This document shows, piece after piece, positions 2,913 to 43,146 of a stretch of 64,000 bases of DNA. Both the position numbers and the translations under genes were made by a program. The DNA comes from Liolophura sinensis (lineage: Eukaryota > Mollusca > Polyplacophora > Chitonida > Chitonidae): positions 10,861,704 through 10,925,703 of the forward strand of contig NC_088304.1 of NCBI RefSeq assembly GCF_032854445.1, read 5' to 3'. The notes under the pieces were generated by a model. The model saw only the letters and a program-made list of their open reading frames with translations, did not search any database and had not been told where the DNA came from. Position 1 is the first letter of the stretch. Each line of letters begins with the position of its first letter.

Positions 2913-2980
2913 ATGCAGCTGTTTGTGTTGACATTTTGTCTTTTGGCTTGTCTCTCTGTGAAGGCTTTGTCACCCAGCGG
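2913..2980 (+). CDS. Exon 1: start codon and signal peptide
   Basis: ATG opens [18 protein letters not shown] followed by LSPSG, a classic short hydrophobic signal peptide with a plausible cleavage after the small residue Ala. The exon ends at GG|gtaagt in phase 2, which matches the acceptor phase of exon 2. No TATA box or promoter can be assigned upstream. Confidence 0.75.
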
Positions 2981-5900
2981 GTAAGTGTCAAAGAAATACC
3001 GCACGGAGGCGAGTTTTTACCTATTCTTAAAGAAAACGAGAGTTGCAAAACAACCCATTTCTTAGAAAACAAGTTTTTTGTCCAAAACCGTTTTCACTTT
3101 AGGCGTTATTCCTTCATTTAGGCAAATCAATGTCATGCAAGACACTGTTCAGAATAATATTAGGGTTGGGGTAAGTAAGCAGAGATTACACTTGCATCAT
3201 TTTAAAAGGCGCAGAAATTCGAAATGATACATTGTTTTGTTTGTTCTTAAACGCATTGAATGACTAAATTATTCACTTTGAATGAATAACAAGTCAAGTA
3301 AAAACTCAATTATTTACCATGTAAGAATTCCCTTTATGAATGAAGTGTACTTTGAGGTATGCTTAATATCTGTCCAAGGTGTGTAATATGGTATTGTGTC
3401 GTGTATCTGAGGTTTATTTGAAGCACTGTCAGTATTAACTGGCCATCTGACGATACAGATTAAGTACACATCGGTTCATGTATACACTGGCGAGACTGCA
3501 GTGGACGCCGAAGATCAGCGTAGGTATAGCTGGGTCATATTCATAGGCAAGGTGTATACCTCAGTCTTATTTACTTTCAGTTTTATTTTTATAGAGATCA
3601 ATCTCACAACATTTAACACTCACTGGCTACATATACATCAGAAGTGAACAGTTTTTGCGTAGCCCATATTCATGTAATTGAAAGATGTGTTATTTTTTGT
3701 ACGTCTGCAAATTTCCACAGGTAATAAACAACCTGATATGTACAGAACTTTATAACAGTTCCTGCTGCCTGGCTTTACACATTCTGTTCTACGACATCTA
3801 AATCTTTCGAGGTGCCTATACACACATCAATAGACATGCCCCCAGAAACAGCGTTAAACAAATGACTGGACAGTATTTTTTTTTCAAATAGTAACATGCA
3901 CATTCTTATTGGGAGAAGGGAGGGGCAGCTATGTTAGAGTGATCAGAGACACTCAGTTTAAGTCTTGAATTTCTAAACACTTTATCTGTTTCAAGTTTGG
4001 AAACGCGTCCTAATTTGAGAATGCATCACATATTTACAACAGTGAACACTCTTGTATGTTTATCGGGTTTTACTCAAAATATATACACAAAGTCATGCTT
4101 GCCAGACAATTTGTGTTTATTGAAAATATCAATCACATTAATATTTTAGAAATTTACGTCTTTATTTATAATAACTGCACCTCCTTAGTTACTTACGTGT
4201 TACTTATAACTGCGCGTCCTTAGTTACTAAACATAGATTTTTTATGCAAAACTGTAAAAGGAGAGGCTTTTATACACGGAACACTTATTTGTACACAAAA
4301 ATACATTCTTTTCTGTGATATATCAGCGTGTGCCAGATGAAAGACAACTCAATATGGTGAAAAAGGTTTTGTTTTATTTAAAATTGCTGCATTTTCCCCC
4401 CTAAAACTGGTTAAGCCATTGTGCTATGGGGCTTTATGCTTTTACAGTTATAATAAAACTGGGTATTTTGCAACCTTTCGCCGTTTAGAGAGAAGCAAAA
4501 TGTCATATGTAATGTCATATTTTATAACTTTCTCAGAGGTTGACATCATCACTTATTCACAAACTGGAGGTGCACGAGGCGTACGCCCATCTACACCTCA
4601 TACCTCTAAGGGTTGTGGATCTTTAAAGGCCGTGTGGAAGGCATGAAAATGTCATTTTTCTACTTTGTCTTTGTGCGAGGTAAAGTCTATAATGTGTGTT
4701 CTTCTATAAAACGATGAAAAAACTTTCCACCGCCTTACGGGCAGATGGAACGTGTATTTTTTCCTGTCTCCAGCAGACCGCCTGGTAAATGAAAGGTACT
4801 GTACTTCATGCTGACAACTTCCTTCAAAATTCCATGCTTGTTTGTCTTGTTTTATTGTATACTGGACAAAAGGAAAAGATAACCAAAATACAATTTTCTA
4901 TCTTAAATTATTTGTGCTTTTTCTTTTACACTTCCAGCCAGAATGTTTGTAGACACACCCGAATCGAGTCGTACACGGTCCAGGAGAGATACTATACGAA
5001 GTGCGGATGGTTCAACTGGGGAAGATGTACACGTCACAGGTTAGTGAAAGACCACTGAGACCAGGGTGCGATTCTTCAAAGACATTTCTCACTTAATTCA
5101 AAACTTAAAGTACGATTTCAGAGCATGTATTTGAGAAAAAACAATGTCACCTGAAGATTAACCCGTAAAAAAATTTAGATTTCAAAACCTGAGAACTGTG
5201 ATGTTTGAAAATTTCAAATCAGAGTGCTACTCCTGTTCAACCGGAAACTGGGAAGAAATATTAAAATGATAGAAAGACAATCTTAAGAAACACCATGACT
5301 CAGAAGTATTTCCAATGAGTAACATCATTTAAATCCTAAACCCGAAGACTCCTGAGAAACATTAGTTTGCATTAAGATTTTCTTGGTGTTATATGGCAAT
5401 ATTCCTTACGTGGCGTTGAATGGGCTTTTCAAAGTACAGCGTCATTTGTTGGTATACGCCATTGATGAGTGAATCTATGCGTCGAAAGAGATATTCGTAT
5501 ACCAGCTGTCAACCAATAAGGACGTTCCAGATCAATGATCGCATGGCCAATTACCAAAATGACGTTTACCACAAACTACAAAAAAAAACTAAGAAAGTAT
5601 ATTAAATACGAAAATAGGATGGGATCATACAAACAGAAGTAGTCAACAAATTTCAATAAAGTAGGAAAGTCGTAAGGTATGTTCTAGAGGACTAGGTGAG
5701 ATCAATATTCAAACCGTGTACCATGCTAGAGTACAAGATATCGATAAAAATACGTATATCAGTATCGCTTTGACTGCAGCTGTTCATATATCCAAAGCGG
5801 CGATCTATTTCAACACGATGATATACTACCCCAAGCTCCAGGTTAAGAGAAATTAGACACAATTATGAAGCAGAGTGCCAGAGAATCTGGACACTGTGTC

Positions 5901-8900
5901 CAGATTTACTTAGAGTGAGTGAGTGAGTGCTTGGGTTTTAACGTCGTACTTTTAACGGGGCAGGAAACCCCAAACCTGACAAGTCACTGATGAACTTTTC
6001 TACGTGTGAGTGATTGAGTGAGTACTTAGCGTTTCATGTCATATTTAACAATTTATCAATCATATGACGACGGAGATATCCTTAGGGTTCATGTAATGTG
6101 CCTCCTTGTTGCAGGACGGATGTCCACCGCTCTTTTATCTAGTGTTGCTTCACTGAGACGACTTACCGAAGGGATGTAACCCGCACCCCCGAGCCATTAT
6201 ACTAGTACGGGTCAACCAGGCGTTGCACTCTCCCTTTCACGCTGAACGCCAAGCGAGGAAGCTACAACTTTCTCTTTTAAAGTCTTAGGTGTAACTCGAC
6301 CCAGGATTGATCCTGGATCTACTGCTCCCGAAGCGGACGCTCTACCAACTTATTGACTTAGAAGAGAATTATATTCATTGTAAAACTTAATGACTCCTTA
6401 AAATGAAGGCGTTTGATGGAATAAGATTTGCACACGCCATTGATTCCATCTGTTCAGGAGTGACGTCACAAAATGGAATCGACAAAAAATATTTGTGTTC
6501 ATATCTTCCCCCAAAACACTCAATATTGCAATTTTTCGATGTATTAAGGAAAGCAGGTCTGACTATCCCCATCAATGTTATTCCATTTTTCGATACCCCT
6601 ACAGTGGCCTCATGGTTAGAGCGTTCGCCTTGAACTCGGGAGATCTGGGATCAAAACCAGGATCGGGTCACACCAAAGGCGTTAAAAATTGTACTTGTTG
6701 CTGCTTCGCTTGGCATTCCGCGGATAGAGCAAGGGCTGATTGGCTGGGTGTCAGTATAATGTGACCGGTTGGAATGTCGTGTTTGCTGTCTTCGGCGGTA
6801 GTACTTTGGCGCCATGGGATCTGCTACACGAAGACTTTATATATGTACACACCCCTAATGACTCCTCGTCGCCATAAGACTGAAAAAATGTTATGGGCGA
6901 CGTTAAACTCCCAAGTGTACGAACATACATACATACATACATACACACATACGAACGAACATACATACATACATACATACACACATACGAACGAACATAC
7001 ATACATACATACATACATACGAACATACATACTAAAGGAGCTGTTTGTCTGGAATAGCCCCAGGCACTTGCGCAAACTAGAGAGACCGGTGAGTCATTTC
7101 TCAATAAGTGGAATGACATCAGGCTGAACTACAGCAACGACAGTGTGTGCAGTTTAAGGATTATCTTTTCACACGAAACACTATCTGTGCTCTAATATTA
7201 CCCCAAGCCACAGGCGGCTTTTATCAAACCAAGCGTGATGTTTAAGTACATGGAGATCACCAGTGACAGATCAGATAACATCTACAGTACAGACAAAGTA
7301 AATACTTCAACGGTTGGGCGTTAAACTACGAGATGTGTCCCGTCAACCCTTTATCTGTTTCCGTTTTACAAGGGGTTTCTACGCGTCTGTTTTTTTTTTG
7401 TTTTTTTTTTTTTGATTGTTTGTTTTTGAGGAGATTATCAGTTACTGTGTTTCTGATTGACGAGAAGGTTTTAAGCTGCTGTTTTTCTGTGGGTCAAGGG
7501 GTTGCGAAGTGCCTCTTCTTCCGTTTGACAACACGTTTCTAACCTCTTCGTTTTCTGTTTCGCAAGACGTTTCTGGGCTGCTCTTTTTCTATTTGACAAG
7601 TAATTTCTGTTCTCCTATAATGCTATATGAGAACAATTTCTAAACCGCATTCTGTTTTAAACTGACAATCAGTTTCTACAAGCACTTTTTCTTCTGTTTG
7701 ACCAGAAGACTACGCTACTTTGTCCTGTCTGAAGATACATTTCTAAGGGCGTTCACTCTGTTTTGTTTTTATCTGCCATTCACATCTAGCAGCCCAGGCG
7801 GAATTAGATTTGAATGAACACCTACTCCTAGCTCAATTAAAAGCAACTGATCTCATTAGTATTAAGCTTTTCTAACTTTGCTTAAAAAGTAGTTAGGATG
7901 GGATGGAGGCAGATTACCATCAAATCTAATTCTCTACAAGGTAACGTAGGATGTGCCTGCTTGATTGAACATTGGAGTGATTTTTGTCACATTTCTATAT
8001 CATGTATTTTCACTTGACGTGGAATGTCACAGCACGTCTACACATATTGAACGTGAAGCCTAGGGTCCTATTCACGTTTCTGGTGTGACATGGGATGTGA
8101 TTTCTAAGATCATCTAGTCTTTCTGACATGTACCTCTAATGCAGCTGAATGTTACAGTTAATATTTCTTTCTTCCTTTTAGACATGCAATTAGAAGCGCC
8201 TGTATAATGTCCATTCATATATATGTAATGGACGTTTTATTTCTCTTTTTCAAATATAGTCTCAAAGTTCCTACATGCCATATGACGTAAACTTCCTAGG
8301 CTCCCCATTTTCATGTTTTACGTAAATCTGTGCGTCGAAACAGACATTTGTAAACCAGCCGTCAGCCAATAAGGACGTTCCAAATCAATAATCACAAGGT
8401 CAAATCCCCAACACGACGTATAGCACAAACCACCAAAGAACTAAGAAAGTGTATAAAGTACGAAAATAGGACGGAATCATGCAAAGAAGGCAGTCAACAC
8501 TTTTAATTGATGCTGAAAAGACGCAAGGTATGTTTTTGAGGACTGAGTAAAAATCAGTATGCAAGAATATTAGTTAGTCGATAACCAAATATGTATCTCA
8601 GTTCCGCTTTGACTGCAGCTTTTCATATATCCAACGCGGGAATCTAATTAACACGATGAATATAATGCCCCTAAAAGCGGGTTAATCGGAATTATACACA
8701 ATCATGCAGCAGAGCATCATAAAATCTGGGAGCAGTTATATTCCTCATGAATGAACTAATTGGACTTCACATTTTCCATATCATAAAATAAGGTTGGATT
8801 CAATATATTGCCATAAATCATCATATATTACTGTTAAATTCGTAGGAACGTAGTTCGTACCAGAACAGCCGTGGACTATAGGTGTTGCTCCGGATGGAAC

Positions 8901-29900: not shown

Positions 29901-32900
29901 GTATATCCGTTTGCTTATCTCTTCATTGTACATATTTGTTGGTGTTTTTCAAAGCCCTCGGGACAGACCGATGGCAATCAGGCTCACAGTTAACAGAAAC
30001 ACGCTGTAGACTACGACCGTGTCAGAACAGCTGTTTCCAAATACGTGAGTGAGTAAGAACCATAGAGTACCTGATAAGAGGTATTCTGCACATCTCTGAT
30101 TCGATCATACTTTGTGAACACAGTGATGTCTTCTCTTCCAAGGACTGCGTTTTTGTACTTTCATCTGAACTTGTTCCTAGTTGAGAAAAGAGTGTGATCT
30201 CCCTCAGGATCTCCCTCAGGATGTAAGAACAAGAACGTGTCTTTATCTTCTGATTAATTCTAGACCAGTGACGTCTAATAAATTGCAATAAACATCATTG
30301 CAATTTTTTCCGTACTTCTAAGTAAGCTATGGTGCTAGGGGACGTGTAGATTGCTGCTATTATTTGTGCATTTACATGAACAGTTAGAATAAAACCCCAA
30401 CTGTGGTAAAATGGCAAGAGGTGGTTTTTCATCGGTTACGTGTAACGATTTGCCACCTCTCACAATGTTGTCGCTGCTCTGGTCTTACTCTCTATGCAGT
30501 AGGTCTTTAATTGTCTTAAGGTCATTTTTATTTGCGCACGGATTTTGTATTTTACCTACATTTATTTGGCGTCATTGGACAAAACATCTCTTTTATTCCT
30601 GTTGCAGGGGCCTCCGTAGCTCAATTAGTTAGCGCGCTAACGCAGCGTAATGACCCAGGCACCTCTCACCAATGCAGCTGCTGTGAGTTCAGTCCACTCT
30701 CCTGCCGTAAGTGGGAAGGTCTGGCAGCAACCTGAGGATGGTCCCCCGGGCTGTGCCCGCTTCCCTCTCACCATAGTGCTGGCCGACGTCGTATAAGTGA
30801 AATATTCTTGAGTACCGCGTAAAATATCAATCAAATGAATGAAGAAATAAATATTCCTGTTGCAGCCTTAGTCAGACGGCCTCGTTTTGGGTATCATTGG
30901 ACGTTAGTCGAGTTCGAGATCCCAACAAAGTCTTTGACTTTTCAGTAGCCCCAGTTCCCGTGGAAACTTACGCAGCTCTGCCTGATATCCGAAAGGTAAG
31001 TGTCGAAAATTGGAAGGCTACGCGAGCTGACTGATTGAAATCTGTGTCAATACATTACCCACTCTTACAGACCATTAGTTTACACCTGCATTAAAGAACA
31101 ATTGGGACGGTGTGTTAATTCCATAAATTACATGTAGTCACATTAATTTTTAGTAATATTAATTATTAATACACTATCTTTATTCTAATTGATAGAATAA
31201 CAAAAAGAATGTTAATCTAGGCCCTGGTTATTCATGCCTTTTATGTGACATTCTTAATGGATAGTTTGTACTATTTGTTTTAATTGTTTACTAGGTAGGA
31301 CAATGAAAAGAAAATGGTTGAAAGAAATCCATACTTTTCTTTAGCGTAAATACAAATAAGGAAATGTACATTCATGTCCGATTATATCACGGTATTCTCT
31401 CTGGATATGATAAGATCTAGGCGTGGAAAGTGATATTAGTATACCCGGTGTCAACCAAAATGGACGATCGGGGTCAGTGGTCTCAAGGTCAATTCACAGA
31501 ACAATGTCCAGCACTGACCACCAAAGAAGTAAGAAAGTATATAAAAGAGAAAAAGAGGGCGGATTCACGTATAGAGAAGCAATTAGAAGTTTGCAATCAC
31601 GATAGACATTTCCATATAAAACGTTAACCACACGTGCCCAAAGGACTAATCAAGCATATCAAGACGGAAAGTAGGACGAAAAGTTTTCAATCACGATAGA
31701 CAGACGCACGGAACATTCTTGATAAAAAAAATTAACGGCAATAACAGTACGACATCAATATTCATTAACAATCATTACGATGATTAGTTTTTCTTTACCT
31801 GGCAGATTTTCACGCACGTGTTTGTTGACCCTTGGGAAGTTTACCTGAAGACTGGCGGGAAGCCAATGGAAGTGACTCTGTACGTCACGATATTGAAGAG
31901 GACAGCTCCAATTTCCTTGTCATTTGGCAATTTATTGCAACACACTTTACAAGCGTTTGGATCTGTTGGAGGTATGGGTACATGTACCCCTTGCAAAGCT
32001 TTTAAGCCTGTCCTTGTAATGTCCACCCTGCGAACTGTTTTCGTGAGACCGATTGTTAAGAGGTAAGCAGAGGAAATTGCCACCTGCCACTTTTTTGACA
32101 AGTCCGTACAGTTGCCCCCCCCCCCCCCCCCCCCCCCGTTTCCTTCGATTTGTACCTGGGAACGCGTCAGGTGTATGTAACACAAGCACTACCTATATCC
32201 GGAAGAAATGGTTTTCATCACATTATATCATTATGCGTTTGCCTAATGTGAGCGATGCCTAAATAATAGGTACACATGTTATAAAACTATACAAAACTAA
32301 GCTCCATTTTTATGTGTCTGAATAAATGTGTCTGTATTTAAACTGACCAACACGTGAATGGTTTGAATTTTATCATATATATCAAAGCCAGACTTGAAAT
32401 CTTGACATCAAACAAATGTAATTAATCAATAACCTATTGTTGTAGTTAAAGCTGATATCATATAATCTTTTCCAGGCCCAGGACCGAGAACATACTGTGG
32501 ACCCCAAGCCAACCCTCCTGGCGTTTTCACCACAGTTTTCGTTGACGCCAAACTTCTCCGTGGCATCCCTGTCATTCAGGATCTTGTCTTTAACATCGAC
32601 ATGGAAGCTGATTTCTTTTACCGTCTCGATGATGTCGACATTTCCAAAGTTCCTCGCCCGATTGATATCATCAAGTCTGTTTTGACCCATGTTAAACAGG
32701 CTGTTATTGAGCTCTTAAACTTCGTCGTGACTGAAATTCAAAAATACGTCGGGGTCATCGCACCAGTCATATTTGAAGCAATACAAGAATTTCGACAACA
32801 CATGCAAACGCTCTTGCAACTGGTCAACCAGTTTTTGGACAAATTCAACTTGACGGCCTTGATAACAAATGTGGGCGATCTTGTCAAAGATATCATAGAG

Positions 32901-35900
32901 AGCATCAATAATCTGGTTCAGAAAGTCAGACAGCTGGTGGACCTTATCAAACTGATGTTCGAAAAAACCCTCGAGAACTTCATAACATTTGTGAAAACGA
33001 AGGTGGATGAGATTAAGAACAACACGCTAACTATGGTACAGTCTCTCTACAACGAGACTGTCGGCATCTTCAAGGGCCCAAAAACATTCGGAATTCGCGG
33101 TTTCTTCTCAGTAACTGTTTTGGGTAAGGGTTTCGGTATCGAGGGTGAGTTCGTGAAATCTGACGCTCATTTACGGCGCTGTGGGAATTTAGTGGAAATC
33201 TACGATCACATGAATGGAGAAGCAGCATGGCGAGCCTTCGGAGTCATTGATGGATTCAAGATTGATCTTGCCAGTGGTAAAGCATCCAGCGGAGGGAAAA
33301 TAACGAGTAAACTTTGGAGTCTCCTTTCTGTGAAACTAGGATTTGGTTTTGGACTCGCCTTGGCCAGTGACAGCAACAACTTTGTAGTACAGTTTCACGC
33401 TCGCTTGAATTTCTTTGGAGCCAAAGCCAGCGCAGATGTCTTCGTCACGAACAAGGAGATCGCCACGCGGGCAGAAGTTAATATCTGGGATATTTTCACA
33501 GCCAGACTAACGATCCGGGCCACGGTATTTGTAAATGTTGCAGACTGGGCTTTGCGGATTCGCGGTGAATTTATTCCTGGTGGTGCCCCTAAGCACCAAG
33601 CAGGAAGCAACGTTCAGGCCAGCCTAGGAGATGCCATTCGAAATTTTGTGAACAGGTTAGCTGATGAGGCTGTGAAACGGATAAGTAAAGCCCAAGATGC
33701 AGTGAACAAAGCAAAGGACAAGCTTACAAGTGCACAGAAATGGTTGGATGATAAAAAATCCGAGGTGGATAAAGCTAACGTTGTCTTCGATAGGGCTATA
33801 GCTGGTTTAGAGCGAGCAAAGCAGAAGTTAGAGGCTGCAAAGGGTCCTTTCCGCAGAGCTCTTGCTAAACTCAACGCCGCACAGAAAAGAGTCGATCGCT
33901 TATGCAAAATCAAATCATGTTCAAAGATTTGTGTTCCTGGTATAAAGTTTAAAATATGCAAATGGGGATGGTTTAGGTTTCCTTGTCCGAAGTTTACAAG
34001 CTGTATGTTCAAGATTCCAAACCCTTTGTGTGTGGCCGCGAATTTGTTATGCCATGGTCTCAGGGCTATTGCCTTTGCGGCATTAGAAGTGGCTAAACTT
34101 TTCGTGAGAGTTCCCATGCTTGCCTTGGACGCTGCCAAGTTCGCACTGTCTGTCGCACAAGTTGTTGTTGATAAATCGCGTATTGTATTGGAAGTCGTAA
34201 AAGTCGCCTTAGACGTTGCCAAGGGTCTTCTTGAAGTGGCTAAAGGAGGACTTAGTTTAGCAAATGTTGCTCTAGAGGGGGTCAAATTTGCCGTGAGAGC
34301 CGTGCAATATGCCATCAACTTCATTGTAAAATATGGCTTACAAAGTATCATCGACATTGGTAATTGTGGGTTTGAGATTGAGTTATCCACAAGAGACTTG
34401 TTTGAGTTCGAAATATTTTGTGATGTTAATCCATTTAGGCTGGGCTGGCGAACCGTGCGTTTCCGTTTAAATTTCCACAATATTTTGGGTAGTATTTGGA
34501 ATGCAGCAAAATCATTGGTCAATAGCTTTTTGGATTCCTTAAAGAATCTGTTTGGTCGTCGAAAGAGAGAAATTAATTACGAGGCATTTTCAAGACTTCA
34601 CAAGGCATTCCGCTACAGACGACAGGCGGGAAATGGAACGTTAGACGAAGATTTGTTCGACAACCTTGAAGATGGAGTCTTGAATAACACCATACTTACA
34701 AACACAACACGAGAGAGTGAACTTCAATTCTGGAGAGAGCAATGCTCTCGTTACTCCCCTGTGAGAAATTTTCTGCAACAGAGCATTGTAGAGTTGAATA
34801 ACGTCACAAATGAGCTGGAGGCTTCCATGCAAGAAGTTTCCAATCGAGGTTCAGAAACAGTAGAGGTACGAAACTCCATTATTAACATAAGTGTTAATGA
34901 CTCTGAGGTTGACTACACTGTGGCCGAAGAAGACTTCAACGTGACAAGAGAACAAGTTGTTAACGTTTTGAATAGCGTAAATGCAAAGATGCAAGATAAT
35001 GATTTGGTAAAGGAAAGCAAATCTGCAACCGACTATGTCATTCAAGGAAACGAAGAGGCACTGAACAGTTTTGCAAGCGCAGAAATTTTACCTCTCTGGC
35101 GGGAAAGAATGGAAAATATTACCCTGGAACTATTGTCTACTGACGAGTGCTCTGGCTTTTATGACTGTGTGGTTTGGAGCTTTGGAGAAATATACCAACT
35201 GGTGGACTCCGTCGACCCACAGCTTCTTCCAAGAGCTCAGCAAGATTTACCCGCTTTGGAGGAACATTTTTACAGCCTTTTTGAGAATGACACAAAGAGC
35301 TTTACAGAACTGGTAGATATAACAACGGAAATCTTAAACGAACTGGAATTGTTGAGAGCTGATGAGATCTTCTGTGGTACCGTGCCAGAAATCACAAAGG
35401 GTCCAAGAAACGTCACAGTTAGGTCAGGCGAAAGTGTCACGTTGACGTGCTCGGCTTCAAGCATCCCCGAGCCCAGCTACTACTGGTTCTTGAACGAGGA
35501 AATGTACGGCACTGGTGGGTCTCTAACACTGACGGTTGTGACGAGTGAGGATGCCGGAGAGTACGTTTGTGTGGCTGGAAATCACGTGGCTAACGTGACG
35601 TCCGACCCAGCCATTGTCACAGTTATTTCCCCTCCTACAGTTCTGTCTCAACCCCCATCCCGAATTGAAGCTCTGGTCGGCGACAAAGTGGTCATTGTGT
35701 GCAGTATTTCCGCTTCACCGGAGGCAAACATAACATGGCGTCTGGTCTCCGATGATGCCTTTAAAGTGGAAAATAAATCCCTAGTGTTGCTTTCCGTCCA
35801 GGAGTCAGATGCTGGAGCTTATAGATGCGATGCTGCAAACGAGTACGGCAATGTTTCAACTAACGAAATGACTCTTGAGGTCTTGGAAGCCAGACCTCTT

Positions 35901-38336
35901 TGTCCCACAGTGACATTGAAGTTTGGGTTTATAACAGCCGAGCCAAGCACAGTGAAAGAAAACGAAACATTACTTCAAAAAGATGTAAACAACGTGCCAT
36001 TACAGACAGCTTTCCGCGAGACCGTGATGTTTCTTTCAAATGTGACGACGTTACCAGTCACCGCAGACGTCAGCATAACGACGTCATCACCAAACGTCGC
36101 ATTGTTGTCTATGACGGTCGGCTGTGGAGAAGTGCCTCTGACGTGTGTTTCCGCGATCTGCCAGCAAATTTACAGTGATGCCCATCAATTCCTTCAACAA
36201 ACCATCACCAACCTTCAAGAAGTGATCCTCTCTGACAAACCATTGTTCATCAATCACGAAAAGGCATTCTATTTCAACCCTTCAATTGTGAACGTACCGG
36301 AAGAGTCGAATAGCTGTCCCAAAGGGTTTAAGGACAATGACGCCCAGCTTTGTGGTGAGTGACAGATTCCTTTTATTTAGAACTTAAATATCAAAACATG
36401 TTCCAAAAGTAGGCGATTGACTCTTAAACCGTATTTCCTCTTGTGCAAAAGTGAAACTTTTGGTTGAAACCTTAAGAATACATTCATTTTTTTAAGCAGA
36501 TTTTTGCTCTCAGATTCAGATTCAGATGTACATTTCATCATATGATTGTTTTGGCAGAGGATTTTAATTACTAAACACGTGTGAAATTTTTGCTGAGGGA
36601 AAAAACTCTATGGCAGTTTTTTTTTGCTTGGGGTTCAAAACCAGGTGCTATTTCTTTTTGCAGTGAAATTTGATGATGGATCTCCACAGAACTTACGCAT
36701 TTCCAGAGCCATTCGTTTCGGCCCGGTGACAACTTTAATTCTGAACTGGGATTCTCCAACACCAGCTGGCGAGATTGTCAGCCAGCTAGGTGAGTCAAAT
36801 TTACAGTGTAAATTGTTGCCAAATTTGGTTTCACTCTCATGTGCTTGTGGTTAAGAATTAGTGGAATTCAAAACAAGTATACTGTGTCTTTACAATCCGT
36901 ATATGGTGATAGACTAAGTTGTTTTGGTACCTTGTGATTGAGTGGGGCCTCATGTCCAGTGTCTTCAGCGTCTTGTTCCAGTGATGCAGAACTATGAAAA
37001 CTAGGGCCAACCTATCACAACGAAAAACTGATGTCAAATGATCGAAATTGCATGCACAGTGGATCTAAATTCCGGAGGAGGAAAAACATAAAAAAACCCC
37101 AAAAAATGAAACAAGTAAAACAAAAAAGTGTCTTTTTCGCATTAAGCACGTCCCTTGTCATTATGACGTGGAATGCAGCTCACTTAGACTAATTAATAGT
37201 TGACCCCATTCTTCCGACTATGTCTCTTTTTGCCATGCAAGTTGATGGAATATAGAAGTTTTGAATAGAGATGAATACAGCGATTCACTCAGCTGACGCT
37301 TAACTACGACCGTCTCAGACGTGTTCTCAAGACTATTTACCAGGGGCCTCCTTGGTGCAAGTGCTTAACATGCCAGGGCGGCGCAATGGCACAGGAGCTT
37401 CTCACCAATACGGCCCCTGTGAGTTCAAGTTCAGCAGTGGCTGGCTTCCTCTCCGGCCATTCTCGGGAAGGTATGCAAGGTGTGGGTGATCGTCGATTTA
37501 TCTGGGGCTCTGTCCAGTTTCCTCCCCCACAATGCTTATATAAGTGAATTATTCTCGATTATGTCTTAAAACTCTGATGAAATAAATAAGTAAATAGCTC
37601 TGTTGCCCGGAAGATGAATGTGGTTAAGAGGCCTTTTTTAAATAAATGTGTGTGTTGGTTTTCACTTCTCTAGGGTACGTTGTGGAAATTTCCAACCTAA
37701 TGTACAGCCCAGCCAGTGTACAGAGGACGTTCTTCTCGTCGTTTGGTATCTTACTTCAAGCGAAGGATGGCGAGACTACTGTAAGAGTGAGGGCAGTTCA
37801 GGAGAATCGACTCAGTCCTGCGGCTGAGATTGTCATCCCTGCTGTCGGCGAAGGTGGGTTTCTCTTTATTTAGGTAAAGTGTAATATCTGTATACATGTA
37901 GTAAGTGAAGCTTTATAACTGTGTACTGTACAATATAGTAGCCTGAGCAAACCGAATAAACACTCCAAGTATTTTTAATCTTGAGGAGATACTTGTTCCG
38001 ACTCTTCCTAAGATGTATCAATTTTTATAGAATACAATTAGAGACGTATAGCATAAAGAGTAAAACCAGAACGGCGACGACAGCTTGGTAGCTGGCAGAC
38101 GTAACCGATTCAGAACTGCTGAAAATATTGCCTGTCACGGCATTTAACGTGCAATTAACATTAATTATTCCATCTGCATTAATAACAAATTTGTGTATTA
38201 CATAAACCAATTATTCAGATGTTTTCCTCGTAACCAATTAACAAACATTTAACGTTGACGTCAAAGTACATGTTTTTGTCTTTTGTTCTATGCAGAAAAC
38301 ACAACCGCATCAAATCCCATATTTGCACCAGCGTAG
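2913..38336 (+). CDS. Whole gene span: secreted EMI / 14x EGF / Ig-Ig / FN3 protein, 23 coding exons
   Basis: Exons were assembled by GT/AG sites and phase continuity. Domain order with approximate residues: signal peptide 1-23, EMI 24-84, EGF modules 85-625, unrecognised beta-rich block 626-1130, amphipathic helices 1186-1332, beta-rich block 1334-1506, Ala-rich helices and a Cys cluster 1519-1756, dibasic site near 1825, Ig domains 2102-2270, FN3 2425-2526, tail to about 2539. There is no transmembrane segment or GPI signal, so a secreted or matrix protein is expected. EMI followed by a calcium-independent plus a calcium-binding EGF resembles the EGFL7/MEGF6 type of arrangement, but the large C-terminal half is not something I recognise. 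Two one-base problems (exon 13, exon 19/20 junction) interrupt the reading frame. Total coding length is about 7.6 kb. An inverted, damaged copy lies at 49-64 kb. Confidence 0.85.
2981..4937 (+). other. Intron 1
   Basis: gtaagt to cttccag. AT-rich, no clear mobile element or other exon seen. Confidence 0.7.
4938..5039 (+). CDS. Exon 2: first half of EMI domain
   Basis: After a cttccag acceptor the frame reads [14 protein letters not shown] and then [14 protein letters not shown]. Three cysteines and the CGW-x-x-WGRC core are typical of EMI domains, the Cys-rich N-terminal modules of EMILIN, multimerin, EGFL7 and MEGF proteins that mediate protein-protein assembly. Both ends are phase 2. The 102-bp exon lies 2 kb downstream of exon 1. 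Confidence 0.8.
5430..5900. repeat. Dispersed repeat family C copy
   Basis: Shares with other copies the blocks accagctgtcaaccaataag, gacgttccagatcaatgatc, ccaattaccaaaatgacg, ctaagaaagtat, gactgcagctgttcatatat and tcaacacgatga. No coding capacity; it could be a non-autonomous DNA element. Confidence 0.75.
6040..6372 (-). mobile_element. tRNA-derived SINE (family B)
   Basis: Reverse-strand element: tail gtcatatttaacaattt, middle ggacggatgtccaccgctctttt and ctgagacgacttaccgaagg, head ctctaccaactta (A box) and cccaggattgatcc (B box). A gtgagtgattgagtgag simple stretch adjoins the tail. Confidence 0.8.
6600..6928 (+). mobile_element. tRNA-derived SINE (family B variant) with CATA tail
   Basis: tRNA-like head (tcatggttagagcg and gggatcaaaaccaggatc), middle gctgcttcgcttggcattc, 3' end gggcgacgttaaactcccaagtg, running into a CATA microsatellite that probably grew from its tail. 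Confidence 0.8.
6929..7032. repeat. CATA microsatellite with higher-order units
   Basis: Runs of CATA interrupted by cacacatacgaacgaa at regular intervals, giving a compound unit of about 38-40 bp present at least twice. It creates spurious long reading frames on both strands. Confidence 0.9.
8320..8740. repeat. Dispersed repeat family C copy
   Basis: gcgtcgaaacagacatt start, then ccgtcagccaataaggacg, caaaccaccaaagaactaag, gcagtcaacactttt, taacacgatgaatataatg. About 420 bp, one of the best preserved copies, just before exon 3. Confidence 0.78.
8846..8928 (+). CDS. Exon 3: second half of EMI domain
   Basis: The frame reads [19 protein letters not shown] and then IHCKR. The Y-x-CC-x-GW motif is the diagnostic C-terminal part of an EMI domain. 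The tag|GAAC acceptor has a weak pyrimidine tract; the next AG (8853) gives a stop after eight codons, so 8846 is chosen. It ends G|gtaaga in phase 1, setting the phase for all EGF exons. Confidence 0.78.
9590..9870 (+). mobile_element. tRNA-derived SINE (family B)
   Basis: Head ggctcagttggtagagcgcc and ctagggtcaagcctag, middle cgactggttgacccgtatca and gataagtcgtctcaatgaa, end ctaaatataacgtgtaaggc. Confidence 0.82.
10062..10166 (+). CDS. Exon 4: EGF module 1 (calcium-independent type)
   Basis: This 105-bp phase 1-1 exon encodes [17 protein letters not shown] then [12 protein letters not shown] and a final Cys: six cysteines, and [10 protein letters not shown] as in EGFL7-type first EGFs. It lacks the D-x-N-E-C calcium motif. 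It is the first of five exons of identical length and design (exons 4, 6, 8, 10, 12). Its counterpart in the inverted copy would lie just past the right end of the window. Confidence 0.85.
10610..11240. repeat. Dispersed repeat family D, two copies in tandem
   Basis: ctaactgaggtaaaatgaca, gatttcacgggttacgcctg, accatttgc and tatcacac..ttgttg occur at 10,700-10,800, then again in weaker form at 11,090-11,190. Matching inverted pair in the right arm at 63,350-63,870. Confidence 0.72.
11805..12060 (+). mobile_element. tRNA-derived SINE (family B variant), shared with right arm
   Basis: gtttagtggctagagctac head, cctgttgtagcctcacttgg middle, aataatgggtgggatgtca end. Its inverted counterpart is at 62,640-62,915. 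Confidence 0.75.
12179..12330 (-). mobile_element. SINE family A, truncated copy with an empty site in the other arm
   Basis: Starts with the tttattta tail and gtgttttacgccgtactcaag block and ends before the tRNA-like head. The matching place in the right arm (about 62,545) is uninterrupted, so this copy arrived after the duplication or was lost precisely there. Confidence 0.8.
12590..13000. repeat. Dispersed repeat family C copy
   Basis: atcagacattcgtataccag, ccgtcaccaataaggacgtt, accaaagaactaagaaagta, caacacgatgaatataaagg; ends just before exon 5. Confidence 0.75.
13092..13214 (+). CDS. Exon 5: calcium-binding EGF module 2
   Basis: This 123-bp phase 1-1 exon starts DINEC and contains [16 protein letters not shown], so it has both the calcium-binding N-terminus and the C-x-N-x4-F-x-C-x-C Asn-hydroxylation consensus. 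Six cysteines. It ends AAG C|gtaagt. Confidence 0.88.
13215..14273 (+). other. Intron 5
   Basis: Contains a short diverged SINE A tail near 13,588-13,650 (tttatttatctgattgttgt). Nothing else recognised. Confidence 0.6.
14274..14378 (+). CDS. Exon 6: EGF module 3 (calcium-independent type)
   Basis: 105-bp phase 1-1 exon encoding [17 protein letters not shown] then [18 protein letters not shown]. Six cysteines, no calcium motif. It is a close paralogue of exon 4. Confidence 0.86.
14421..14512 (+). mobile_element. SINE family A, internally deleted fragment
   Basis: Carries ggtcgtgcatgggtgggttt, taatgctggtcgccgtcgta and the caccaatgaaat end of family A, with a gap inside. Confidence 0.65.
14791..15025 (+). 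mobile_element. SINE family A, near full length with target-site duplication
   Basis: It has the tRNA-like head (aggcctccgtggc, B-box-like gagttcaagtcc) through to the acaccaatca end. A 13-bp direct repeat (tataaactcaacc at 14,776-14,788 and tatagactcaacc at 15,041-15,053) fits a target-site duplication with one later change. Confidence 0.85.
15240..15500. repeat. Dispersed repeat family D copy
   Basis: cccttgaggtgtaataaatt, agttacaataaaaccctgag, tttcaccggttacgtgtaac, ctctatgcgtctttaatta. It starts and ends with the same blocks as the copies at 30.25 and 49.58 kb. Confidence 0.72.
15593..15715 (+). CDS. Exon 7: calcium-binding EGF module 4
   Basis: 123-bp phase 1-1 exon, starts DVNEC and contains [16 protein letters not shown]. 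It has the calcium-binding and hydroxylation signatures and six cysteines. A polypyrimidine tract and ttttcag acceptor precede it. Confidence 0.87.
16040..16144 (+). CDS. Exon 8: EGF module 5 (calcium-independent type)
   Basis: 105-bp phase 1-1 exon encoding [17 protein letters not shown] then [18 protein letters not shown]. Six cysteines. It lies only 324 bp after exon 7, so exons 7 and 8 form the tightest pair in the array. Confidence 0.86.
16250..16790. repeat. 31-bp minisatellite with an internal inverted segment
   Basis: Repeats of gatgatggcacgatagcacg + aggcgtctcag fill this stretch of intron 8. Between 16,561 and 16,610 the units run in the opposite direction, bounded by the inverted 11-mers ACTCGATAGCT (16,550-16,560) and AGCTATCGAGT (16,611-16,621). 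Confidence 0.9.
16791..18097 (+). other. Rest of intron 8 after the minisatellite
   Basis: Non-repetitive by eye. The frames at 16,886-17,282 are not supported by any domain. Confidence 0.6.
18098..18217 (+). CDS. Exon 9: calcium-binding EGF module 6
   Basis: 120-bp phase 1-1 exon, starts DINEC and carries [16 protein letters not shown]. Six cysteines, one residue shorter than its sisters near the C-terminus. Confidence 0.87.
18490..18905. repeat. Dispersed repeat family C, subgroup also at 39.5 kb
   Basis: gtccgtaaagggcgttccaa, acactagctcccaaagacaa, ttgatcacaatgcagatcgc. The reverse complement of the same subgroup lies at 39,525-40,170. Confidence 0.7.
19168..19257. repeat. Short minisatellite in intron 9
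   Basis: Repeats of atggtcacacgtaat and tacacgtaataat, about four imperfect units. Confidence 0.8.
19505..19609 (+). CDS. Exon 10: EGF module 7 (calcium-independent type)
   Basis: 105-bp phase 1-1 exon encoding [17 protein letters not shown] then [18 protein letters not shown]. Six cysteines. Confidence 0.86.
19834..20071 (+). mobile_element. SINE family A, near full length
   Basis: Head aggctcctccatggtcga, internal catgctgac...ccggtttcctgccacc and tail caccaatcaaataaataaa. Diverged in the tRNA-like part. It ends about 80 bp before exon 11. Confidence 0.8.
20153..20275 (+). CDS. Exon 11: calcium-binding EGF module 8
   Basis: 123-bp phase 1-1 exon, starts DINEC and carries [16 protein letters not shown]. 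Six cysteines. The acceptor tgtttaag has a non-consensus A before AG, but phase and domain boundary fix it. Confidence 0.85.
20290..20405. repeat. Tandem repeat (~72 bp, 2 copies) in intron 11
   Basis: tgtataatctacgtggtgaa and gcataatctaccttgtgaac start two units, each with gactgacggt / gattgacggt. The right arm has three units at 60,420-60,612. Confidence 0.75.
20746..20850 (+). CDS. Exon 12: EGF module 9 (calcium-independent type)
   Basis: 105-bp phase 1-1 exon encoding [17 protein letters not shown] then [18 protein letters not shown]. Compared with its minus-strand copy (59873-59977) I count 6 differences in 105 bases. Five are silent and one changes His to Gln. Confidence 0.87.
21023..21303 (-). 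mobile_element. SINE family A, full length
   Basis: Complete reverse-strand copy from the tttattta tail to a clear tRNA-like head (gcgctaaccaactgagacac). It abuts a second copy in the opposite orientation. Confidence 0.85.
21321..21505 (+). mobile_element. SINE family A, 5'-truncated, head-to-head with its neighbour
   Basis: Starts inside the element (aatgcgatcgctgtg) and ends in an ATAA-repeat tail. Together with the preceding copy it forms an imperfect hairpin of about 180-bp arms. Confidence 0.85.
21530..22860 (-). repeat. Family E repeat (~1.3 kb) in left-arm intron 12
   Basis: Reverse complement matches 58,000-59,430 (same intron, right arm) and 60,990-62,400. It includes a conserved stretch near 21,850-22,045 that reads [20 protein letters not shown] on the minus strand, and a family D block at one end. 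Confidence 0.8.
22865..23215. repeat. Tandem duplication of ~195 bp in intron 12
   Basis: gcaaacttttgcaac...gagtaggttg...actccaggctcgtcccagta...ctgggtattgac occurs twice in direct orientation. Confidence 0.85.
23624..23745 (+). CDS. Exon 13: calcium-binding EGF module 10, with a one-base deletion
   Basis: The exon is 122 bp where every comparable module is 120 or 123. It starts DTNECLS, then the frame is lost at about 23,644. One base along, the expected [17 protein letters not shown] resumes. In the arriving frame a TAG occurs at 23,719-23,721. The inverted copy (55639-55761) is 123 bp and fully open, so the plus copy has lost a base relative to it. The neighbouring exons are all phase 1-1, so skipping this exon would restore the frame. 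A sequencing or assembly error is equally possible. Confidence 0.8.
24031..24153 (+). CDS. Exon 14: calcium-binding EGF module 11
   Basis: 123-bp phase 1-1 exon, starts DIDEC and carries [16 protein letters not shown]. Against the inverted copy I count 3 differences in 123 bases, all silent. Confidence 0.88.
24428..24550 (+). CDS. Exon 15: calcium-binding EGF module 12
   Basis: 123-bp phase 1-1 exon, starts DLDEC and carries [16 protein letters not shown]. The end (acatgcagag|gtaaga) is the seed of a 47-bp tandem repeat in the following intron that repeats the splice donor. Against the inverted copy: 5 base differences, giving Ser to Thr and Ala to Met. Confidence 0.87.
24532..24890 (+). repeat. 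47-bp minisatellite made from the exon 15 end and its splice donor
   Basis: gaaaacatgcagag|gtaaga followed by gacaccaactgagacac-like sequence repeats with the gcagag core at 24,545, 24,592, 24,639, 24,684, 24,729, 24,776, 24,823 and 24,870 (spacings 45-47). The first unit overlaps coding sequence. Units two and three keep a perfect AG|GTAAGA donor; the later ones have lost it. Confidence 0.9.
25500..25619 (+). CDS. Exon 16: divergent EGF module 13
   Basis: 120-bp phase 1-1 exon starting DASDC, with [10 protein letters not shown] and [11 protein letters not shown]. Six cysteines in EGF-like spacing, but the calcium and hydroxylation motifs are gone and the region between Cys2 and Cys3 is very short. 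It has no copy in the minus arm, where it falls inside a deletion. Confidence 0.78.
   Translation: MLQTAVTNSSSGAGHSVTKQRLPVSAPLDTCFTAMGLTA
25960..26205 (-). mobile_element. tRNA-derived SINE (family B variant)
   Basis: acaccagacatgaca, tatactgacactgagccaatc, gctgagcgccaagcgaggagg, gtttgatccc: the family B variant read in reverse, in intron 16. Confidence 0.7.
27130..27890 (-). other. Possible remnant of a mobile-element coding region
   Basis: On the minus strand the frame before the 50-bp duplication reads [20 protein letters not shown], a Cys/His cluster reminiscent of a zinc knuckle but with non-standard spacing. The flanking sequence is less AT-rich than the rest of the intron. No longer frame or known domain can be supported. 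Confidence 0.25.
27751..27850. repeat. 50-bp tandem duplication in intron 16
   Basis: ggcacacatttacagcgttc ... ctgata occurs at 27,751-27,800 and 27,801-27,850 with two base differences. Confidence 0.9.
28041..28235 (+). mobile_element. SINE family A, 5'-truncated
   Basis: Starts gcgatcgctgtg, includes ccaccataatgctggccgtc and ends aacaaaataaataaaa; lies about 300 bp before exon 17. Confidence 0.8.
28530..29778 (+). CDS. Exon 17: EGF module 14 plus unrecognised ~375-residue block
   Basis: The exon opens with a canonical EGF ([14 protein letters not shown] then [16 protein letters not shown]) and continues open for about 375 residues of alternating hydrophobic, probably beta-rich sequence that I do not recognise. 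It contains a few cysteines (YCKG, EQYC) and a basic stretch RRARHA. It ends TAT CC|gtaagt in phase 2. Previous exon ends phase 1, matching. Absent from the minus arm. Confidence 0.82.
30250..30550. repeat. Dispersed repeat family D copy in intron 17
   Basis: gaccagtgacgtctaataaa, cagttagaataaaacccc, tcatcggttacgtgtaacga, cttactctctatgcagtag; directly upstream of the SINE at the exon 18 acceptor. Confidence 0.72.
30607..30852 (+). mobile_element. SINE family A inserted exactly at the exon 18 splice acceptor
   Basis: Full-length copy (gcctccgtagctcaattagt head to ATAA-like tail) flanked by a perfect 14-bp direct repeat TATTCCTGTTGCAG at 30,594-30,607 and 30,852-30,865. The repeat contains the pyrimidine tract and AG of the exon 18 acceptor, so the insertion duplicated the 3' splice site. 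Use of the upstream AG would read into the SINE and meet TAG after eight codons. Confidence 0.88.
30866..30995 (+). CDS. Exon 18: short unrecognised exon behind a SINE
   Basis: The frame entering in phase 2 reads [16 protein letters not shown] then [21 protein letters not shown]. The other two frames hit stops. It ends AAG|gtaagt in phase 0. The acceptor TATTCCTGTTGCAG is also present immediately upstream of the SINE at 30,594-30,607 as a target-site duplication. Confidence 0.7.
31420..31720. repeat. Dispersed repeat family C, diverged copy in intron 18
   Basis: ccggtgtcaaccaaaatgg, gaccaccaaagaagtaagaa, agtatataaaagag match the family core, after which a short duplicated stretch (tttgcaatcacgatagac / tttcaatcacgatagac) follows. 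Confidence 0.6.
31806..32062 (+). CDS. Exon 19: unrecognised exon
   Basis: The frame is open from the ctggcag acceptor (phase 0) and reads [15 protein letters not shown], later GTCTPCKAF and FVRPIVKR, then AG|gtaagc in phase 2. The beta-strand-like sequence continues the block begun in exon 17. Its exit phase does not fit exon 20, which needs phase 1. No other donor in this exon gives phase 1, and no alternative acceptor before exon 20 fits. Confidence 0.65.
32117..32138. repeat. Poly-C run in intron 19
   Basis: About 22 consecutive C bases between exons 19 and 20, a likely spot for length error in the sequence or assembly. Confidence 0.9.
32476..36354 (+). CDS. Exon 20: giant 3.9-kb exon, helices, Cys cluster, cleavage sites, two Ig domains
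   Basis: One open frame of 1,293 codons. In order: strand-like start ([15 protein letters not shown]); amphipathic helices 32,640-33,080; Gly/Phe beta-like block 33,085-33,600; Ala/Lys helices 33,640-33,900; a Cys cluster 33,918-34,055 ([34 protein letters not shown]); a second run of Ala/Val/Lys helices with an 11-residue rhythm to 34,350; RRKR at 34,557-34,568 and RYRR at 34,611-34,622; a Glu/Asn-rich stretch; Ig domain 1 about 35,388-35,625 ([18 protein letters not shown]); Ig domain 2 about 35,630-35,890 ([18 protein letters not shown]); and a region rich in N-glycosylation sites. An in-frame TAA at 32,463 shows the exon starts after that. Secreted Ig domains suggest an adhesive or matrix role. 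The middle is unknown to me. Confidence 0.85.
36664..36789 (+). CDS. Exon 21: first half of FN3 domain
   Basis: 126-bp phase 1-1 exon encoding [16 protein letters not shown] then [18 protein letters not shown]. The P-x-N-L start and the conserved Trp before a proline-rich turn mark an FN3 fold. Against the inverted copy this exon carries 18 more bases (six codons) near its start. Confidence 0.78.
37343..37597 (+). mobile_element. SINE family A shared by both arms
   Basis: Diverged copy in intron 21 (head gcctccttggtgcaagtg, tail aaataaataagtaaat). A truncated copy sits at the same place in the right arm, so it predates the duplication. Confidence 0.8.
37674..37853 (+). CDS. Exon 22: second half of FN3 domain
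   Basis: 180-bp phase 1-1 exon, [11 protein letters not shown] then [20 protein letters not shown]. The Y-x-V-E-I strand and V-R-V-R-A-V-x-E-N strand followed by S-P-A-A are the C-strand and F/G-strand signatures of FN3. The inverted copy encodes the same 60 residues with eight substitutions. Confidence 0.8.
38296..38336 (+). CDS. Exon 23: C-terminal tail and stop
   Basis: The exon encodes [13 protein letters not shown] and then TAG at 38,334-38,336. It is short, hydrophilic and has one N-glycosylation sequon; no membrane anchor. The 41-bp sequence is identical in the inverted copy. Confidence 0.78.
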
Positions 38337-41224: not shown

Positions 41225-43146
41225 GAGTGATAAAAATATATCCTTCATCAACCTGAATTCTCTGACGTCCTTGGATCTGTCTCACAACCGACTAGAAAAG
41301 CTACAACCCTGGGCCTTGTCAAAGCTTTTGTCTCTCAATCTGAACCTAAAACAGTCTTCAGCTAACCTACGAAGCCTATCGTCCTAATGTCTTTCGCCCA
41401 CTTCATCGGTTAGAGACACTAAAGATAATGTACAATGCCAACACTGACAGGAAAGACCTTCCAAATGGATATCCAGATCAACTGGTCAGTAGCCTTGGAT
41501 CTGTGACACTGCTTACCATTGATGGTATTAATGGGCTACCTTTTGGACAAGGGTTTTTGACCATGTCCCAACTTACGTCAATACAGGTGAACTTTAGGGA
41601 GCAAGATAACCGACTGAAACGTTTGCTGTCTTCGGGAAGTTATCAAGTTGCTCACGTGGCAACCTTATGTGTTCAAGACCTATATCTTAGTAACAATTAT
41701 ATTATCTGCTTGGATATTAACGCCATGTTTGAAATTAAGTACCCAGAATGTTACGAAAGGATGAACTTTGGAGAAAATTATTTAGTAACAGGGCCTGCTT
41801 AGCTCTGCAGATACAGTGCACCTAACAATTTCCTTTCTACCTTCACTCCAAAGATTGAATTGTAGCTTTTATGGTAGTAGTGAGTTCCTAAGAATTAATG
41901 TTACATTTAAAGACTCGGACAAACTTCGAAATGTCGATTTGCCATTCACTCAACCAGTGCTTTCTGATGGCCCCAGGGATGCAGATTTCTGGTATAGGCT
42001 ACTCTCTGCTAAATCCAACATTTTTTGACTTCTTTCCAGGCTTACGCGTCCTTGTTGCACGAAGCTGTAGGCTGAGGAAAGACTTTGAACGTGAAGGGCG
42101 TTCCCTTCCGCTCTGTTAAAAACTTAAAAACACTTGATCTATCGAGCAACGATATAACAATGCTGTACAAAGATTTGTTTAAACCACTTCACAGCCTGGA
42201 AGTCTTAATCCTCAGAAACAACAGGTTAACCGTAATTCCCGTGGCTCTGTTCAACGTTAAGACTCAAAGGTATTTAAAACAGTCAATGTTCTTTCATCTT
42301 TTTCCGAAGAGGAAAGGCAGTGGGTCACCTCTACAACTTCTTTGGAAGGAAAAGAGTTGGTGATCTTGTCTCTTAGTAATAACCCCTTCCTCTGTATCTG
42401 TAACACGCTGCCGTTTGTCCATTGGATTCTAGCAAATTCTAACATTATCCTCGATCATCAAAGCCTTTCGTGCAGCATGGTAAATGAAATAGTGACAAAT
42501 ATAATGAACTTAAAGTCACAGGTAAAGGATATGGATGTCAGCTGCGTCAGCAAGATTTGGTTGACATTTTCTGTTGTTGGATCCTGTTTGTTAAGTCTAT
42601 GTAATCTTGGCAATAATGGGCTACCGTTACAGATGGAACATAAAATACTGGATTAGGACAAAATGTCGTAGAGGTCCTGTATATGACGAACTGGGGATGG
42701 AACATTATCAGTTTGACGCCTTTGTGTCCTATAATTCGCACAATTACCAGTGGGCCTGCCGTGATCTAAGAAACGTTTTTGAAACTCAGAACACTTAACA
42801 CTTTGCCTCTATGATCGTGATTTTCCTGTAGGTGTCAGCATACAACAGAACACTGTAGACGCCGTGAACACCAGCCGGAAAGTCATCCTGGTGATCAACA
42901 GAGCCTTTCTGAGAGGCGACTGGTGTGAGTTTGAAATTCAAATGGCGGGCATGCGCATGATGAGAGACGGTCGTGAGGACGCCATTATTGTGATCATGAT
43001 GGAAGAGGCCCCGGTAGCGGAAATGCCAAGGTCGTTACTAAATTTGTGGAAACACATTACTTTTCTCATGTGAGGAAAATGAGCAAACAGACGAAGAGAT
43101 TTTCTGGGATCGACTCCTAGAAGTAATGGCACGCCCTGAAACATAA
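41225..43146 (+). pseudogene. Toll-like receptor pseudogene (LRRs, LRRCT, TM, TIR)
   Basis: Pieces of one receptor appear in order in shifting frames: LRRs (LTSLDLSHNRLEKLQ at about 41,257; NLKTLDLSSNDITML and LEVLILRNNRLTVIP at 42,120-42,240), a C-terminal LRR cap (NNPFLCICNTLPFVHWI), a transmembrane stretch (IWLTFSVVGSCLLSLC), then a TIR domain with box 1 FDAFVSYNS, box 2 LYDRDFPVG and box 3 FWDRL before the TAA at 43,144. Frame breaks near 41,375, 41,800, 42,030, 42,267, 42,604, 42,798 and 43,075 make it non-functional. No signal peptide or N-terminal LRR start was found, so the 5' end is lost. In the family, ligand binding by LRRs outside the cell leads to TIR signalling inside. It sits alone in the spacer between the duplication arms. 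Confidence 0.88.

Follow-up and report, generated by a model that had tools for sequence, protein, structure and literature searches.

Gene Model and Features of the Locus

The stretch of DNA analysed here, referred to as the window, comprises 64,000 nucleotides of the genome of the chiton Liolophura sinensis (609 Mb, 632 contigs) and corresponds to contig C10:10861704-10925703 (+). A 23-exon gene model, built from stop-to-stop frames and splice sites, occupies window positions 2913-38336 (+). With exon 13 omitted, it comprises 2,467 codons without an internal stop and with AG/GT borders. The ATG at 2913 is the start and the stop codon ends at 38336, which are the two limits that the initial annotation of this DNA had given; an AATAAA lies at about 38468. 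The features of the gene are as follows.

2913-2980 (+): exon 1, signal peptide ([18 protein letters not shown]...), judged by eye
4938-5039 (+): exon 2, EMI-like module, first half
8846-8928 (+): exon 3, EMI-like module, second half (YRCCSGW)
10062-20850 (+): exons 4-12, nine EGF exons, each phase 1-1, alternating between two types (Pfam)
10062-10166, 13092-13214, 14274-14378, 15593-15715, 16040-16144 (+): exons 4-8, EGF
18098-18217, 19505-19609, 20153-20275, 20746-20850 (+): exons 9-12, EGF
23624-23745 (+): exon 13, frameshifted EGF exon, skippable
24031-24153, 24428-24550, 25500-25619 (+): exons 14-16, three more EGF exons (Pfam)
28530-29778 (+): exon 17, final EGF and about 370 residues without Pfam match
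30866-30995 (+): exon 18 (exon A), no known domain; placed by splice phases and the close copy L002
31806-31971 (+): exon 19 (exon B); match strong in L002, weak in three of six diverged copies
32476-36354 (+): exon 20, the giant exon; in order, amphipathic helices, a beta-like stretch, a Cys-tipped helical hairpin, beta-like strands, the furin-type site, a helical stalk, both Ig domains and a spacer
33060-33599 (+): beta-like region, exon-frame residues 199-378 (170-degree moment)
33600-34355 (+): putative helical hairpin (379-630) with Cys-rich tip (480-529), cysteines conserved (periodicity, alignment)
34557-34622 (+): furin-type motifs RRKR (698-701) and RYRR (716-719)
35385-35882 (+): two Ig domains (974-1139) (Pfam; PDB sequence matches)
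36664-36789 (+): exon 21, FN3-like module, first half
37674-37853 (+): exon 22, FN3-like module, second half
38296-38336 (+): exon 23, short tail and stop; acceptor and stop also in copy L001 (L040)

The product thus begins with the signal, the EMI-like module and the EGFs, continues with 1,444 residues for which Pfam gave no match, and ends with Ig-Ig, the spacer, the FN3-like module and the stop. In the numbering of the model, the EMI-like module starts at residue 24, the EGFs extend to 585, and the region without Pfam match covers 586-2029, with the first furin-type motif at 1754; the Ig domains start at 2030, the spacer at 2199, the FN3-like module at 2353 and the tail at 2455. The giant exon alone is open over 1,298 codons.

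Exons 4-16 are EGF modules running from phase 1 to phase 1, with the exception of exon 13, which in the assembly carries a one-base frameshift relative to its own EGF frame. Its inclusion in the model brings in 114 stops, and the frame is intact when it is skipped, because the surrounding EGF exons are of phase 1-1. The part of the model of which we are least sure is exon 18, which was recognised only in the close copy L002, with an in-frame stop there, and in none of six diverged copies. Exon 19 was matched strongly in L002 and weakly in L028, L030 and L032 among the diverged copies (E 0.008-0.025). A later donor for exon 19 was ruled out by phase and by a stop that precedes that donor in L002. 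The in-frame stop in the exon-18 region of L002 lies at about 1878-2057 of L022 (C10:10975001-10977600), and the giant exon of that copy is open.

The window holds other elements as well. A dispersed repeat, translated as [16 protein letters not shown] or the like, recurs at about 12180-12330, 21050-21250 and 60780-60900; it sits within introns of the gene, at other places in the window and also in paralogue loci. A leucine-rich-repeat-like fragment lies at 41350-41799 (+), where LRR_8 scores under the cut-off (E = 0.06). A broken copy of the giant exon occupies 51210-54431 (-); piecewise it is mostly 77-86% identical, with two short pieces at 68-69%, and it contains several frameshifts and stops, while its EMI-like exons lie outside the window at C10:10927620-10932134 (-).

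Domain Assignments

The EGF and Ig labels are beyond doubt. EGF modules match Pfam above the cut-off in the window copy, as do two Ig stretches (Ig_3, E = 3.3e-29). In the PDB, the Ig pair finds its best sequence matches in titin, Robo2, carcinoembryonic antigen and DCC. Of the EMI and EGF pair that the initial annotation placed at the N-terminus, the EGF part therefore stands as given, but EMI (PF07546) reaches 16.8 bits in the window copy against a cut-off of 25. It is also the sole family listed for four of five paralogues (9.3, 15.3, 18.7 and 21.6 bits, all under the cut-off) and is absent in the fifth, which is why the module is labelled EMI-like.

The C-terminal end had been described as Ig-Ig-FN3. 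Its Ig domains are those just given, but FN3 has no Pfam match in the window copy, and the PDB search returned only gastric lipase at E 1.4. In four paralogues, a two-exon domain at the same place scores 28.2, 34.3, 20.2 and 16.5 bits for FN3, the first two values lying above the cut-off and the last two below it, and the label FN3-like for the window copy follows from these paralogue domains at the equivalent place.

No fibrinogen domain and no lipid-binding or lipid-transfer family was among the families listed in the Pfam scans of the pieces of the gene. At E <= 1, Pfam gave no family for the 527-residue span that begins in exon 17 and reaches the first part of exon 20. The exon-17 profile, aligned from 12 of 19 relatives, gave a single PDB match at E 1.8, which was not used.

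A Family of Paralogous Loci

A search of the L. sinensis genome with the giant exon gave at least 44 matches; scoring was restricted to the best candidates, so the true number may be higher. They were grouped into 23 loci, namely 19 nearly complete copies and four broken ones. An unbroken frame is kept in 16 of the nearly complete copies, the exceptions being L003, which has a stop, and L005 and L010, which are split. Identity to the window copy is 22-86% over the giant exon in the genome search; for the middle alone, the remaining 14 rows of a 15-copy alignment (all copies except L002, L003, L009 and L010) give 19-84%. In a maximum-likelihood tree of 17 of the 19 rows (without L003 and L010), the window copy groups with L001 and L002, and the long branches L014, L015, L017 and L018 are placed with uncertainty.

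The upstream exons are part of the same layout. In all 19 copies, the giant exon is preceded on its own strand by a relative of the EGF-bearing exon 17, and EMI-like exons lie upstream on the same strand in nine of them and in two broken copies (limit E 10); four of the nine matches reach E 0.04-0.9 only, their Cys pattern having been confirmed by reading. Two further EMI-like matches are left without an assignment, and one match (C1:94419219) is about 100 kb from the nearest family member. The initial annotation had regarded transcripts assigning the EGF half and the Ig/FN3 half to separate genes as a finding that would overturn its proposal. From the sequence, two separate genes are unlikely, because the exon-17 relative is in place in 19/19 copies and the middle and Ig domains share a single frame in 16/19. 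One gene with the domain order that had been proposed is likewise what the open 23-exon model indicates, with the same layout found throughout the paralogue family. Downstream of L015, the reverse strand of L038 (C1:94310900-94314250, about 1400-2520) carries a long tandem repeat with several open frames (YTGMPL and CRYTQV units).

The Central Region

The middle had been put at about 1,700 residues; as measured on the model, it has 1,444 (586-2029). Its description as novel held up in the Pfam check, which gave nothing above the cut-off for the middle of the giant exon in the window copy. A Pfam scan of 15 copies of the middle, in which cut-offs are given for the first row only and that row has none above, listed DUF745 in three rows (best 1.5e-4), Exonuc_VII_L in six rows (best 0.052) and single-row matches to coiled-coil-like families. 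We take the DUF745 matches as helix noise. Searched against PDB, profiles of the middle found designed coiled coils, apolipoprotein A-IV, tropomyosin and the like, at E 2.7e-4 upward.

The beta-rich and amphipathic-helical character first ascribed to this region is borne out by hydrophobicity periodicity averaged over the same 15 of 19 copies (without L002, L003, L009 and L010). In exon-frame numbering, periodicity is helix-like over most of residues 73-198, strand-like over much of 199-378, helix-like at 379-486, 523-630 and 667-702, and strand-like at 631-648. A cysteine-rich stretch connects the two long helical ones, which are similar in length. Twelve cysteine columns precede the convertase site, each with Cys in 16-18 of 18 rows, and the tip cysteines 480, 485, 522 and 529 are present in all 18. 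From this pattern we infer an antiparallel helical hairpin with a disulphide tip beside a beta sheet.

The initial annotation had suggested that the centre may be a lipid-binding or assembly module; in the former case, the amphipathic helices and the beta sheet would hold or carry lipid. A lipid-binding protein would fit the amphipathic-helix periodicity at residues 73-198 and 379-630, and also the profile matches of the first helical stretch, at E 9e-4 and 0.016 to apolipoprotein A-IV and at E 7.5 to apolipophorin-III. On that stretch, however, designed coiled coils score as well, the best of them (2.7e-4) ranking ahead of apolipoprotein A-IV; tropomyosin and vimentin match the hairpin at 0.02-0.1, and the Pfam scans list no lipid-transfer family. 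Helical composition alone can yield such weak matches, so lipid binding is unsupported, and we hold this reading to be very improbable.

Searched alone against its own genome, the beta/hairpin part finds every match at E <= 1e-3 within family loci, and the module as a separate gene in the L. sinensis genome was not found at that threshold. A bacterial origin of the middle was rejected as well, within a reach limited to close relatives: two short peptide patterns run against prokaryote genomes gave 535 stretches, none of them a relative. Open-literature searches of titles and abstract openings named no described family of such make-up. Within these searches, which covered Pfam, PDB sequences, the prokaryote pattern scan and the literature, the middle is undescribed. 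We therefore call the family a modular Ig/EGF receptor of a known kind and its central module new. The module consists of about 500 residues with a conserved cysteine frame inside the 1,444-residue region, has no Pfam match above the cut-off in the window copy and meets only helical look-alikes among PDB sequences.

A Furin-type Site Between the Two Halves

A furin-type site, absent from the initial annotation, is added by this analysis. In 16 of 18 rows, RX(K/R)R is found around residues 680-740, where it separates the middle from the Ig half; over the remainder of the rows, the motif appears eight times in 21,731 residues, or 0.022 per 60 residues. Motifs and sequons were counted in 18 of the 19 rows, without L010, which also has the motif when viewed apart. 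The 16 rows are related and are therefore not 16 independent events. The two rows without the motif are L015 (C1:94.31 Mb) and L018 (C1:69.33 Mb).

N-glycosylation sequons are commoner after the site in precisely the 16 rows that bear the motif; for example, counts before and after it are 3/16 in the window copy, 3/13 in L004 and 5/10 in L011. In the motif-less rows, they are 7/5 (L015) and 8/7 (L018). We infer that proteins of this family are cleaved at RX(K/R)R, and L015 and L018 may represent an uncleaved subfamily.

A Probable Membrane Anchor in Relatives and Its Absence in the Window Copy

The protein had been described as lacking a membrane anchor. This is so for the window copy, in which none was found, but not for the family. 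Judged by eye, 11 of the 14 diverged copies surveyed (L004, L005, L006, L007, L010, L011, L012, L014, L015, L017 and L018) have a hydrophobic stretch of 20 residues, followed by a polar tail, in their downstream sequence; none was seen in the 3.3-5 kb downstream of L008, L013 and L016. Each segment lies beyond the giant exon and, wherever the two FN3 halves could be made out, beyond these as well (they were not recognised for L005 and L006); the survey covers all copies but L003 and L009. A fixed rule (hydropathy > 2.1, a basic residue nearby and a polar tail >= 35), which was set after the segments were known, accepts eight of the 14 and misses L005, L007 and L014. The same rule accepted none of 16 opposite strands, nothing in 66.6 kb of other window sequence and none of the three window-cluster copies (window, L001 and L002). 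The tails have few signalling motifs: among the eight found by the rule, YxxPhi occurs once (L010) and NPxY not at all, and in L017 an overlapping-frame second segment contains YxxPhi twice.

The window copy and L001 have in common a last exon with a stop, 92% identical over 51 bases, and L002 has a stop right at the end of FN3. Because helix-bearing copies occur in every main group of the tree, a single loss of the membrane helix in the window cluster appears probable, and the missing anchor of the window copy looks derived.

Selection and Block Exchange

Selection and mosaic structure were analysed in the four closest copies (window, L001, L002 and L003). The middle is under purifying selection: dN/dS over it is 0.08-0.29, one zero aside. 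Over the two Ig domains it is 0.17-0.65 (six pairs) and over the spacer before FN3 0.14-0.84, all of these ratios resting on small counts where dS is low, with two values undefined. Since dN/dS never exceeds 1, nothing points to positive selection. A chance open reading frame was rejected on the grounds of the 1,298 open codons of the giant exon, its openness in 16/19 copies and the dN/dS over the middle.

Synonymous distances change abruptly from part to part. Between the window copy and L001, the distance is 1.32 in the hairpin and 0.17 in Ig2, and between the window copy and L002 it is 0.11 in the hairpin and 2.6 in the spacer. Sites private to L001 cluster in residues 201-1000, and sites that join the window copy and L001 against L002 and L003 cluster in 1001-1300; over 281 informative sites, the observed clustering was reached by none of 5,000 shuffles. 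We read these mosaic distances, together with the clustering of sites, as an exchange of domain blocks among tandem copies.

These data also bear on whether the window copy is a pseudogene that has a frameshifted exon 13 and has lost its membrane exon. Such decay would agree with the one-base frameshift, with the broken copy nearby and with the stops that L002 has in exon 18 and L003 in its giant exon. Against it, the remaining 22 exons are open with AG/GT borders, dN/dS is about 0.1-0.2 versus L001 and L002 over most of the giant exon, exon 13 is skippable, and the tail exon with its stop is kept in L001. We regard a pseudogene as quite unlikely. The window cluster as a whole may nevertheless be decaying, because of the frameshifted EGF exon in the window copy, the exon-18 stop in L002 and the giant-exon stop in L003.

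EMI- and EGF-type modules are common in extracellular matrix proteins, and the family could be one of extracellular or biomineral matrix, in which EMI, EGF and FN3 assemble, the hairpin polymerises and membrane-bound members tie the matrix to epithelia. The N-terminal modules, the long helix-like hairpin and the purifying selection on the middle would suit such a role, but tandem clusters with broken copies, block exchange and faster Ig domains are in our judgement less expected of a structural matrix, and we consider this reading doubtful. Were it to hold, the family would provide a new building block of molluscan extracellular matrix.

The order Ig-Ig-FN3-membrane is usual in adhesion receptors, and the copies might instead be developmental or neuronal adhesion receptors with no immune role, the window cluster being a decaying or neofunctionalised soluble branch. 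This would be in line with titin, Robo2, carcinoembryonic antigen and DCC as the best PDB matches of the Ig pair and with the lack of any dN/dS above 1. About 20 copies, with broken members and block exchange, are nevertheless unusual for developmental or neuronal adhesion receptors, so that this explanation is unlikely.

Proposed Explanation

We propose that the locus belongs to a family of processed type-I recognition or adhesion receptors of which this member is soluble, an explanation to which we give a probability of roughly 40%. For the cleavage, the fold, the partners and the role, it would run as follows. The ancestral product was most likely a type-I single-pass surface protein, with a signal, an EMI-like module, an EGF rod, the region of about 1,440 residues, a proprotein-convertase site, a helical stalk, two Ig domains, FN3, a membrane helix and a short tail. 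The region of about 1,440 residues would hold a module of its own, made up of a helical bundle, a beta domain, an antiparallel hairpin with arms of about 100 residues and a disulphide-rich tip, and beta strands. Cleavage at RX(K/R)R would give two chains, one with the EGFs and the hairpin and the other a glycosylated Ig/FN3 chain.

In the window cluster, the membrane exon has seemingly been lost, the window copy and L001 ending in a short tail exon and L002 stopping at once, and given this loss the window member should be secreted and soluble. The faster-changing Ig domains may serve ligand recognition or adhesion, and the conserved hairpin module may be a scaffold or an oligomerisation arm. 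Membrane members would then be receptors, and products of the window cluster would be soluble binders or decoys that bind the same ligands or block the membrane members. An immune or self/non-self use is our first guess. The wider proposition would be a non-vertebrate self/non-self recognition system: a new family of receptors that furin processes into two chains, built on a new module (beta / disulphide-tipped helical-hairpin / beta) and diversified within chitons through tandem duplication and block exchange, with membrane-bound and (in one cluster) soluble members. As a whole, this must be considered improbable, although it is far from negligible. In any case, apparently membrane-bound and soluble members offer a natural comparison within one mollusc.

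Comparison with Known Systems

The secreted proteins EGFL7 and MEGF6 have EMI followed by EGF repeats and are not known to contain anything else of size. The chiton protein resembles this layout in its signal, EMI-like module and subsequent EGF repeats. It differs in that its EMI is under the cut-off, in that the EGFs are not its end but lead on to the 1,444 residues without Pfam match, the furin-type site, the Ig pair and FN3, and in the membrane helix of most of the diverged chiton copies examined. In the latter copies, the combination of an EMI/EGF ectodomain with a single membrane helix is like that of the phagocytic receptors Draper, MEGF10 and SCARF, in which, to our knowledge, there is no Ig, FN3 or middle of this kind.

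Like Ig-superfamily adhesion receptors, the window copy has Ig domains. The FN3 and helix that follow Ig in those receptors are found in paralogues (FN3 above the cut-off in 2/4, helix in 11/14 by eye and 8/14 by rule), but the window copy has neither a Pfam FN3 nor a helix. No Pfam family of apolipoproteins or lipid-transfer proteins was listed for the chiton protein, whose PDB apolipoprotein matches are no better than those to designed coiled coils.

Three invertebrate systems invite comparison in how they work. The FREPs and FReMs of Biomphalaria are a multigene family defined by a C-terminal fibrinogen domain, FREPs having one or two IgSF domains and FReMs an EGF-like region (PMC7588048). 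The chiton genes are similar in forming a molluscan multigene family with Ig or EGF-like parts, but Pfam scans of the chiton gene listed no fibrinogen domain. The PTC2 TM1 cluster of Biomphalaria consists of single-pass membrane genes of 166-530 codons with no known domain but the helix, and two homologues are without a membrane helix (PMC7494358). Here, too, there is a molluscan cluster of single-pass membrane genes in which some members are helix-less, no helix having been found in the window copy; the chiton family differs in its length of about 2,500 codons (2,467 residues in the window copy) and in its EGF and Ig domains. In the tunicate Botryllus, fuhc comprises two separate genes that are linked, one secreted and the other membrane-bound with Ig domains (PMC3691228); compared by description, the likeness concerns working only, that is, linked secreted and membrane forms.

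The parallels with FREP, PTC2 and fuhc are thus, by analogy, a likeness of working and would not imply membership of those families. If the Ig half were polymorphic and expressed in hemocytes, the family would constitute a new chiton receptor system comparable to the FREPs or the PTC clusters.
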